Source: Haloarcula sp. CBA1129 (lineage in GTDB: Archaea; Halobacteriota; Halobacteria; Halobacteriales; Haloarculaceae). Taken from it: 64,000 nucleotides of DNA. The translations under genes were made by a program, and so were the position numbers. Location of the stretch: assembly GCF_008729015.1 (NCBI RefSeq), contig NZ_RKSM01000003.1:62001-126000 (forward strand). The letters are read 5' to 3'. Every line of letters begins with the position of its first letter. Position 1 is the first letter of the stretch. Below are positions 4,390 through 7,495 of this stretch, in pieces. The notes under the pieces were generated by a model, which saw nothing but the letters and a program-made list of their open reading frames with translations, was not told where the DNA came from and ran no database searches.

Positions 4390-5217
4390 CTACGGCGACT
4401 GGGACGGTTGTCGCCGGGCGGTGGTCTCGGTCGCGTTCTCGGAAGCGATCTCTCGGGCAGTGTCGACCCAACTGTGGTCCGGGAAGGGCGCGGGACGGAC
4501 CTCGTAGGTGTACCGGTCTACGCGCTCGCCTCTGTCAAACGTGATGTCGAACGCATAGACGATGCCATCCTCAGCCCCGAGTTTGAGCGTGCCGTTGCGA
4601 AGCGGTGGGGCGTCGGCGGCGGCGGTCGCCCGTTTGCCGGTGGCGCGATACGTGATGACGGGGACACCGTGGTGGGTCGTCGTGTTGGTGGCCGTCCACG
4701 TGTACCCGTCGAGGAGGTCTGGGTGTCGACCGATGTTCGTGGGCGCGATCTGTCCGTAGTATGGGTCGTACCGGTAATACGCGTCGGTGGCGCTGTCGTA
4801 GACGTAGCTGTCGTCCGCTTCCAGTTGCTCTCGCTGGTGCTCGCTCGGGAGACTGTCGGCCGGCTGGACAGACGCATACGTCGTCCCGTTCCGATAGACA
4901 GAGGCGTTGTGCCACCGTTTGGCGAGTATCTCGCCCGTGGCGGAATTGATGTAGTAATCGCCCTCCACGAGTCGGCGTTCGGGCGGTGCGGTGTACACGA
5001 GAGCGTAGGAATCCCAGTACGACCGTGGAGTGTGTGAAACGTTCGTATCGTCTGTTTCCAGCGCCGTGAAGTTGATATGGTCCGGTCCTGCCCCTGTAGG
5101 ATATGTCTGTTCAGATATAGGAGCGGTTGTTTGCGGAGACCAGACCGCTGTGAAAGCGACCAGTCCGATACCGACTGCGACGAGCGCGACGAGTCCAATG
5201 ACGTAGCGGCGGTCCAT
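4390..5217 (-). CDS. Membrane-anchored extracellular protein, haloarchaeal type
   Basis: This 275-residue protein has an N-terminal helix (YVIGLVALVAVGIGLVAFTA) and then an extracellular domain rich in Tyr and Asn, with several N-x-S/T sequons. The pattern of short strands (DSYVYDSATDAYYRYD) suggests a beta-rich fold like those of haloarchaeal surface or outer-leaflet proteins of the LolA/LppX type, but I cannot confirm that. It converges with the lipoprotein gene on the other strand. No catalytic motif is visible. Confidence 0.75.
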   Translation of the reverse strand: MDRRYVIGLVALVAVGIGLVAFTAVWSPQTTAPISEQTYPTGAGPDHINFTALETDDTNVSHTPRSYWDSYALVYTAPPERRLVEGDYYINSATGEILAKRWHNASVYRNGTTYASVQPADSLPSEHQREQLEADDSYVYDSATDAYYRYDPYYGQIAPTNIGRHPDLLDGYTWTATNTTTHHGVPVITYRATGKRATAAADAPPLRNGTLKLGAEDGIVYAFDITFDRGERVDRYTYEVRPAPFPDHSWVDTAREIASENATETTARRQPSQSP

Positions 5218-5515
5218 ACCACGTCAAATCACAGCATCAGTAAGTAAGTGCCCAAGACCCAAAACAGAACTTGTGCGTTACGTAGGACCACAGATGTTCC
5301 GCAATCTGTGAACGATACGACTACTGTGCCTGCTCGCATTACCCCGCGAACGACTGGCCGTTTGTTGGTTCGCACCATCGACGATGACACACCAACGACG
5401 TGGATGCGGACACTTCGATACGCAACGGCAAGGCTGTCTGGTGGCAGTTACAACGGTTCTACGCCGAACTACAGCAAAGTCGCGTGGCTCACTGGAACTC
5501 AAGTCAGGTATGAAT
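5218..5515. other. Intergenic region 3' of the 5S gene, with possible decayed reading frame
   Basis: No intact gene is seen. On the plus strand one frame reads DHRCSAICERYDYCACSHY and onward to a TGA at about 5384, and after that stop the same frame continues with protein-like residues (AVWWQLQRFYAELQQSRVAH) to a TGA near 5512. This may be the scrap of a gene broken by a nonsense codon, but neither part is long enough to identify. I see no tRNA gene and no 3' end of 23S rRNA. Confidence 0.3.
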
Positions 5516-5637
5516 GGTGGCGGCGAACCGCGTTTCCCAGAGGCTCGCGCACTCCAGTACTCCCCGGAACGCTGGTGGGCTTATCTTCCGTGTTCGGGAT
5601 GGGTACGGGAGGCAACCCCACCGCTGTGGCCGCCTAT
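5516..5637 (-). rRNA. rrf: 5S ribosomal RNA, orphan copy
   Basis: Read on the minus strand, this 122-base segment begins ATAGGCGGCCACAGCGG and ends GTTCGCCGCCACC, with the conserved core CCCATCCCGAACACGG. The 5' and 3' ends pair (GGCGGC with GCCGCC), as in helix I of 5S rRNA. From memory it matches the Haloarcula marismortui 5S over its full length except for about two bases: the first base or two, and one C-to-G near the 3' end in GGGAAACGCGG. No 16S, 23S or tRNA gene lies on either side, so it is not part of a visible rRNA operon. It has its own promoter 26 bases upstream. It should be functional unless the substitution harms helix V. Confidence 0.95.
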
Positions 5638-5658
5638 ACACTTCCTCTGGCAGCCACA

Positions 5659-5667
5659 CTTATAAGA
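5659..5667 (-). promoter_or_regulatory. TATA box of the orphan 5S rRNA gene
   Basis: On the minus strand the sequence CTTATAAGTG is centred about 26 bases before the first base of the mature 5S RNA. This is the canonical spacing for an archaeal TATA box, so transcription would begin at or within a base or two of the mature 5' end and the gene would not need an rRNA operon. Confidence 0.7.
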
Positions 5668-5850
5668 GTAGCTACTTGGAGACGAGACCTGTCTGAATAT
5701 CGTCCCGTCGCTCAGTGGAACAGCTCTAACCAGCGCACGATGCCACTACATTCGGGTCGCAATCGCGTTCTGATCTCTGTCTACTGCTTGGTACGGAGAA
5801 TTGAGGAGAAAGCCCCGCGAGTCGGGCCGAAGAAGATGTCAATTAAACCA

Positions 5851-6021
5851 TCAAATGCAGACTATTTTGGCAAGCGGCTTCCGACCGCTCGGCTTTTCGC
5901 GCGCTTTGAGTTCCGCAGGCAGCGTCTCGGGATCGGTGCGTTCGCCGACAGCGCCCATCGCCTTGGCATCGAAGTCGTCTTCTGGGACGCCCAGCGCTCC
6001 GTGGACTGGCCACACAGGCAC
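5851..6021 (-). CDS. Small hypothetical protein (56 residues)
   Basis: A GTG-initiated frame reads VPVWPVHGALGVPEDDFDAK and continues acidic then basic, with AELKAREKPSGRK near its end. Residue and codon choice (GC-rich third positions, Asp/Glu-rich) resemble real haloarchaeal proteins far more than the other frames here. It starts nine bases after the stop of the membrane protein gene on the same strand, so it would be co-transcribed with it. No Shine-Dalgarno sequence and no known domain are seen. It could also be the C-terminal piece of a broken gene. Confidence 0.45.
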   Translation of the reverse strand: MPVWPVHGALGVPEDDFDAKAMGAVGERTDPETLPAELKAREKPSGRKPLAKIVCI

Positions 6022-6030
6022 AATTGGTCA

Positions 6031-7350
6031 CTAGCCAGACGATGGCGTCCCGAGGGAGACACCGGCGAGGAAAATCGGCAGGCCAGCGATAGCAACGGCG
6101 GCGGCGATGGCCGCGGTGACGGGGATGAAGAGCACGCCCAGTCCGAACGGCGCAGGCAGTACCGGGAGTACCGGAAGCATCGATAGCACGAACCCGATAG
6201 CGGCCGTTTTCATCGCTAGCCAACGGTTCCCGTGGCCGACTGCGTACCCGGCCGGGAGAAGCACAAACCCGGGTCCAAGAACCAATAGAGTTGACACGGG
6301 GAGCGTGACTCCGTCACTGACGACCATCGGAGCCGCCGCTATTGTCGCTCCGAGGGCGAGACCTGCTCCGACGACTGCACCACCAGCGACTGTCCGATAG
6401 CTTGCGCGCTCACGGACACGCCGTTGCGAAAGTTCGATCCCACACACGAACAGTGCAGAGCCACCACCGAACAGGGGCGCTGCTATGCCACCCAATCGCA
6501 AAACGCCCGTCGCTCCGAGAAGCGACAGGGCAGTCGCTAACGCGCCGAAGCCGGCGAATACGATGCCAGCGGAGTCCCGTACTCGTTTGAGATTCCAATT
6601 CAGCCAGCCGACGCCCCCGGCGGCAGCGCCGATCAAGAGGGTAAACACCGCTGTGGGGAGCGTGATGTATGCGAGCGCCTTCACCGCCATCACGGGGCCG
6701 AGAAGTAATCCGACCGCGAGGAGGCTCAAAAGCGGCCCAAACGCCGTATCACGGGGGACAAACGTCACGACTCGTCCGTCGGTGAGTTCAGTCAGCGTCA
6801 TCCGTTGTCTGTCGTCTGAGATAGTCGCGCCGTCGATGGTCCTCCCGACTCTCATCCCGTCGGGAGCAACGACGACCAACTGATCAGCACCGAGGCCATC
6901 GAGGTTTCGATAGCCGTAGGCTTCAGTAAACTCCCCAGTACGGACCGTCCCACCGACGGACTGCTGGGCGAAGTCGGCCTCGCGGTAGCGTAGCGTTATG
7001 ACGCCGTCTGACACGTTCGCACTCAGGAGTTCCGTGTCCCACATCGCTCTGTCGGCGATAGCGGTCCGAAGACTCTCGTTCGCCTCAAGGCGTGCGGCCC
7101 CAGCCGTGTCAGAAAGGCGGTTATGGACAACCCACGTTGCGCTTCCGTTGTTGTGGACGGCGACAGTTGCGTTGCTTTGAGTGACAGTGACCGACACACC
7201 GCGGGAGTCGACTGTCGATTCGAACGAGTCGCCGCACGCATCACACAGCGGCCGCGGCGGCGGCGCTGCCCCAGCGGGCATGACAGTGCCAAGGAGCATC
7301 ACACAGACTAGACAGAGGAGGGCGAGGTGGTGGAGTCGATGCGGGACCAT
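6031..7350 (-). CDS. Exported polytopic membrane protein with N-terminal extracellular domain
   Basis: The 439-residue protein starts with a cleavable-looking signal (MVPHRLHHLALLCLVCVMLL, ending PAGA). An extracellular domain of about 180 residues follows, with a CDACGDSF motif and N-x-S/T sequons, then about nine hydrophobic helices. The signal-plus-ectodomain-plus-helices layout suggests sensing or transport, but no family is recognised. A start 21 bases further upstream is possible; 7350 is preferred because GGGAG lies about ten bases before it and the signal peptide fits better. Confidence 0.75.
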   Translation of the reverse strand: MVPHRLHHLALLCLVCVMLLGTVMPAGAAPPPRPLCDACGDSFESTVDSRGVSVTVTQSNATVAVHNNGSATWVVHNRLSDTAGAARLEANESLRTAIADRAMWDTELLSANVSDGVITLRYREADFAQQSVGGTVRTGEFTEAYGYRNLDGLGADQLVVVAPDGMRVGRTIDGATISDDRQRMTLTELTDGRVVTFVPRDTAFGPLLSLLAVGLLLGPVMAVKALAYITLPTAVFTLLIGAAAGGVGWLNWNLKRVRDSAGIVFAGFGALATALSLLGATGVLRLGGIAAPLFGGGSALFVCGIELSQRRVRERASYRTVAGGAVVGAGLALGATIAAAPMVVSDGVTLPVSTLLVLGPGFVLLPAGYAVGHGNRWLAMKTAAIGFVLSMLPVLPVLPAPFGLGVLFIPVTAAIAAAVAIAGLPIFLAGVSLGTPSSG

Positions 7351-7495
7351 GTAATATATCTCCCTTGTCATGTCTTAAGAGCTATCGATTACTCAAACAA
7401 CGGTTATACCAACACTGGCGGCGGGAGACACTTCTGGCAATATATCCCTGACAATTATGCCGCGCAATACATAGCGTCCGCTACGCCGGCTGTAT

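Follow-up and report, generated by a model that had tools for sequence, protein, structure and literature searches.

The locus lies in a window of 64 kb, by which we mean the whole stretch of DNA that was analyzed; it corresponds to positions 62001-126000 of contig C3 (528,641 bases), one of the five contigs of a 4.05 Mb genome. The central feature is a lone 5S rRNA gene on the minus strand, which matches the Rfam model RF00001 over its full length (model positions 1-120) at window positions 5637-5515, with 80.5 bits and an E value of 1.6e-15, against a cut-off of 38. On the contig the gene occupies positions 67515-67637. The features of the locus, all on the minus strand, are the following:

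4390 to 5217, minus strand: gene for a 275-aa protein, downstream of the 5S gene; syntenic in H. marismortui and two others.
5506 to 5514, minus strand: 3' trailer TTCATACCT, also found in the operon 5S copies.
5516 to 5637, minus strand: lone 5S rRNA gene, 122 nt in its mature form, with gene base 1 at 5637; assigned with Rfam RF00001 and by comparison with the operons.
5637 to 5638, minus strand: initiator T(-1)/A(+1), at the start of the mature RNA; operon copies have G/T there.
5653 to 5658, minus strand: TGTGGC, next to the TATA box on its downstream side, conserved according to the mask of 14 orthologues.
5660 to 5665, minus strand: TATA box TTATAA, beginning with a T at -28 relative to the mature 5' end, from the sequence and the spacing in orthologues.
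5668 to 5675, minus strand: palindrome GTAGCTAC, adjoining the TATA box on its upstream side.
5857 to 6006, minus strand: C-terminal remnant of a nitroreductase gene, about 50 codons, recognized by comparison with the whole gene in relatives.
6031 to 7371, minus strand: gene for a 446-aa protein, the upstream neighbor, syntenic and whole in 12 of 14 species.

The initial annotation had described a complete, free-standing 5S gene of 122 bases, and the description holds: the Rfam and tRNA searches returned no further Rfam match and no tRNA gene in the rest of the window, 16S and 23S genes are absent from it, and the closest rRNA operon is 57 kb off on the same contig. Seven 5S genes were counted in the genome, six of which adjoin 23S and 16S genes. 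The lone copy has no linkage to either, as expected of a free-standing archaeal 5S unit, and the 23S gene that would lie shortly upstream of an operon 5S on the same strand was found neither in the window nor at any orthologous locus. The replicon that carries the gene appears to be megaplasmid-like. Two small contigs of the assembly (G000), C4 with 13,353 bp and C5 with 19,142 bp, hold one rRNA operon each, and in both of them flanks that belong to distinct C1 and C3 operons are joined; they are residues of the assembly process or else genuine rearrangements produced by recombination between operons. Because these two contigs are mosaics of other rRNA regions, four operons are certain in this genome and six are nominal.

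Orthologues of the lone gene were sought with a DNA search of 32 genomes of the genus, which include those of H. marismortui, H. hispanica, H. sebkhae, H. amylolytica, and H. mannanilytica, together with a 5S search whose results were cross-checked against 23S genes. The unit is present in 14 Haloarcula species of the set. In two of them the replicon that bears it is a finished megaplasmid, NC_015944.1 (pHH400) in H. hispanica and NC_006395.1 (pNG700) in H. marismortui; the two are collinear in a published comparison (PMC3528665). The rpoB' tree, built from about 4.1 kb of sequence, groups the 14 carriers into exactly one clade, with a support of 100/100. The lone 5S unit was thus gained once and has not been lost within the 14-species clade.

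The genes around the unit decay or change, and the unit itself persists. The nitroreductase gene, reduced to a remnant here, is whole between the 446-aa gene and the 5S gene in 7 of the 12 species that keep the former in synteny, including H. hispanica and H. marismortui. H. mannanilytica (G012) keeps both the promoter and the lone 5S gene, and none of the compared neighbors is present there.

The survey was extended to 392 genomes of the order, which were scanned for TTATA located 18-32 bases before a 5S start, a pattern that could miss other TATA forms. The output consisted of 13 lone genes of the clade and one operon gene with an adjacent 23S; with this single TATA form, a lone 5S gene bearing its own promoter was found only in the 14-species clade. 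Plasmid-borne 5S genes of Halorussus, Halomicrobium, and Natrinema were considered as parallels, and each of the six that were examined belongs to an operon, next to a 23S gene. Similarly, lone-looking 5S genes in G016, G019, G022, and G023 (C1, C4) were set aside, as all of them lie at contig ends of draft assemblies.

A separate observation concerns a second, divergent lone 5S gene outside the 14-species clade (L093, about 1375-1497; near position 135376 of contig C5 of G023, a contig of 404 kb). Its terminal stem carries a paired change, from G-C to A-T at pair 5-118. The 42 bases upstream of it match the promoter consensus of the lone genes at 19 positions in one register and at 8-11 in the other registers tried. 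This gene may be an older or a transferred relative.

Upstream of the lone gene, a promoter block of about 30 bases, running from TAGCTACnCTTATA to TGTGGC, is conserved together with the 5S gene in the 14 orthologues, while the flanks diverge. Mean pairwise identity is 0.89 at -44 to -31 and 0.82 at -30 to -15; outside the block it is 0.33-0.54 further upstream and 0.50 at -14 to -4. The roughly 15 bases between the block and the gene vary in sequence and are constant in number in the alignment of the 14 orthologues. Likewise, the spacing from TTATA to the gene is identical in all of them (13 by pattern and the 14th by alignment). The placement of a TATA box some 26 bases ahead of the mature 5' end, made in the initial annotation, agrees with this anatomy, since TTATAA at 5660-5665 is centered about 26 bases before 5637. 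The element TAGCTACnCTTATA occurs once per genome in 13 carriers, always at the lone 5S gene, and the 14th carrier has GTAGCCAC. The only other match in the genus, a TAGCTAC element in the non-carrier G015, has no 5S gene nearby and is unrelated.

The bases flanking the mature 5' end also set the lone copies apart: position -1 is T in all 14, and position +1 carries a purine, A in 13 cases and G in the remaining one, whereas all operon copies that were read completely have G/T at -1/+1. The archaeal polymerase prefers to initiate at a purine preceded by a pyrimidine, at a distance of about 25 bases from the center of the TATA box. Given this preference and the T/purine pair at -1/+1, transcription most likely starts at the mature 5' end itself; the literature yielded no start-site map of the locus. 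The initial annotation had also held that this 5S could be made alone, and the constant spacing, the conserved element, the purine at +1, and the single gain with no loss in 14 species strongly favor a functional promoter and support this.

On the 3' side, most species have a trailer of the form TTCATA(C/T)CT at the lone gene as well as in the operons, and the TTCATACCT trailer is possibly a 3'-end processing signal or a relic of the duplication. The strong hairpin found on the 3' side of the operons is missing at the lone 5S gene. A conserved terminator hairpin downstream of the gene was considered and rejected, as the candidate folds with -0.75 kcal/mol and shows no paired changes in the orthologues. 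The segment 20-50 bases past the gene (window about 5463-5495, minus strand), GAGCGACGCG..GCTGTAG, is moderately conserved and has no conserved stem. In two genomes (loci L081 and L084, of G004 and G012), the lone 5S gene has an additional CA at its 3' end (CGCCACACCATTCAT), absent from the operon copies of the same genomes.

Compared with the chromosomal operon 5S, the lone gene has a single difference, A instead of T at base 1; base 12 differs as well when the comparison is made with the operon copies of C3. A C-to-G change near the 3' end had been proposed as a variant of the lone gene, but G stands at position 107 in seven of seven 5S copies here, and in two of three operon copies of H. 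marismortui. Looking for this base in ribosomes would therefore be uninformative about the lone gene. Other markers serve better: the lone copy of H. hispanica has TC at 106-107 where the operon 5S has CG, and A versus U at base 1, and that of H. marismortui is marked by C18/T41/G62. In these two species the lone 5S RNA differs from the operon 5S at no fewer than two internal bases (at least 2 in each), so the share of the lone copy in ribosomes is directly readable.

The secondary structure is preserved too. In none of the 40 sequences compared is pair 18-62 broken: it is either T-A or C-G, and few other pairs vary; it is through this pair that the stems of RF00001 are kept by paired change. 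In four genomes (G004, G014, G025, and G030), the pair differs between the lone and the operon copy of the same genome. The body of the 5S gene has an identity of 0.97.

These data are best accommodated by the lone gene being a functional accessory gene, which probably supplements the 5S pool derived from the operons. According to the proposed sequence of events, the 5S gene of an rRNA operon, along with some 10 bases on its 3' side, would have been duplicated onto a megaplasmid in the ancestor of one Haloarcula clade, where the copy would have come under a TATA promoter. Initiation by RNA polymerase, assisted by TBP and TFB, would take place at the purine that replaces U1; for the pHH400 copy of H. 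hispanica, the start is expected at the A of AUAGGCGGCC. The 5' end of such a transcript would already be mature and only 3' trimming would be required, and the product would be an ordinary 5S rRNA that joins the operon-derived pool. What the data show directly is an intact and isolated gene whose promoter anatomy is conserved and which was gained once and retained; we infer that it is transcribed from this start, and that its product enters ribosomes and contributes to 5S dosage.

The need for an extra copy is not obvious, as the operons supply 5S already. The completeness of the rRNA operons would suit a duplicate that is transcribed weakly or not at all, whose resemblance to 5S is maintained by gene conversion with the operons and which travels as a passenger of the megaplasmid. 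Within a genome, bases 106/107 of the lone gene mostly vary together with those of the operon 5S, a pattern that suggests gene conversion between them and makes the identity of the 5S body, taken by itself, weak evidence of selection. The promoter is better evidence: the operon 5S copies do not have it, so that gene conversion with the operons cannot explain why it is conserved, with a fixed spacing and a purine at +1. Furthermore, the lone gene was never lost in 14 species, while its nitroreductase neighbor decayed here. A weak or silent duplicate is for these reasons an unlikely explanation.

A different role has been considered for the RNA, namely that of a mainly regulatory 5S-like molecule, which would titrate the 5S-binding proteins uL5/uL18 or serve one particular stress instead of the ribosome. 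The palindrome GTAGCTAC, unique and conserved upstream of the TATA box, suggests a dedicated regulation, yet the RNA is essentially identical to the ribosomal 5S and has no distinguishing sequence mark, so that its entry into ribosomes is to be expected; we consider this role improbable. Within the preferred reading of an accessory 5S gene, the same palindrome could place the gene under dedicated control, and 5S supply could be set separately from that of 16S and 23S, for instance by temperature, an example chosen because the use of the Haloarcula operons is temperature-dependent. It would amount to a split supply even though every operon of the organism is complete. Such independent regulation is plausible, but rather less likely than not.

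The rRNA regions of the assembly are recombined with one another, which invites the idea that the lone 5S gene is a site of recombination or integration of the megaplasmid through its homology to the chromosomal rRNA operons; this is very improbable, given that the homology spans only about 130 bp, that the whole operons of C3 are far better targets, and that the conservation of the promoter would be left unexplained. An assembly artefact, with a 23S gene beyond a wrong join as the initial annotation had cautioned, is excluded by the same layout in the independent assemblies of 13 other species, including the complete plasmids pHH400 and pNG700, even if the state of C4 and C5 makes plain that rRNA regions are hard to assemble.

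An accessory 5S gene matters because the operons make 5S, 16S, and 23S equally, so that an additional source of 5S with its own promoter could let one rRNA be produced out of step with the other two, if the lone gene is active. For H. hispanica, one of the carriers, strains that lack one or two of the rRNA operons already exist (PMC5368182). In such strains the number of 5S genes falls less than proportionally to that of 16S and 23S, which affects how they are interpreted.

No description of orphan or additional 5S genes in haloarchaea was found in the openly accessible literature; the locus tags RR_RS02515 and HAH_RS17870, unlisted and situated at the site, suggest that automatic annotation already lists the lone gene. 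The accessible parts of the work on Haloarcula rRNA report two or three rRNA operons, H. hispanica included, each with a 5S gene, and mention no further 5S beyond them (PMC5368182, PMC6373231). The 5S of rrnA/B/C is nearly identical to the lone copy and shares the first bases of its 3' trailer, but it is released by processing of a long precursor, with G/T at -1/+1, and lacks a promoter of its own, which the lone gene has. Methanococcus species are reported to have an additional 5S copy unlinked from their rRNA operons, which sits with tRNA genes, whereas tRNA genes are absent near the lone gene of Haloarcula. The stand-alone 5S of the bacterium Desulfallas gibsoniae is likewise a single displaced gene outside an operon; however, it bears an expansion segment and appears to be a one-off displacement (PMC7812874), in contrast to the Haloarcula gene with its 14 species and conserved promoter. 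A free-standing 5S gene is the norm among TACK archaea and is found in Thermoplasma as well, where, as at this locus, such genes are unlinked from 16S and 23S, and where they are separately transcribed (PMC8339473). In those archaea this is the sole arrangement, whereas the lone 5S of Haloarcula is an extra gene, on a plasmid-like replicon, beside complete 16S-23S-5S operons.
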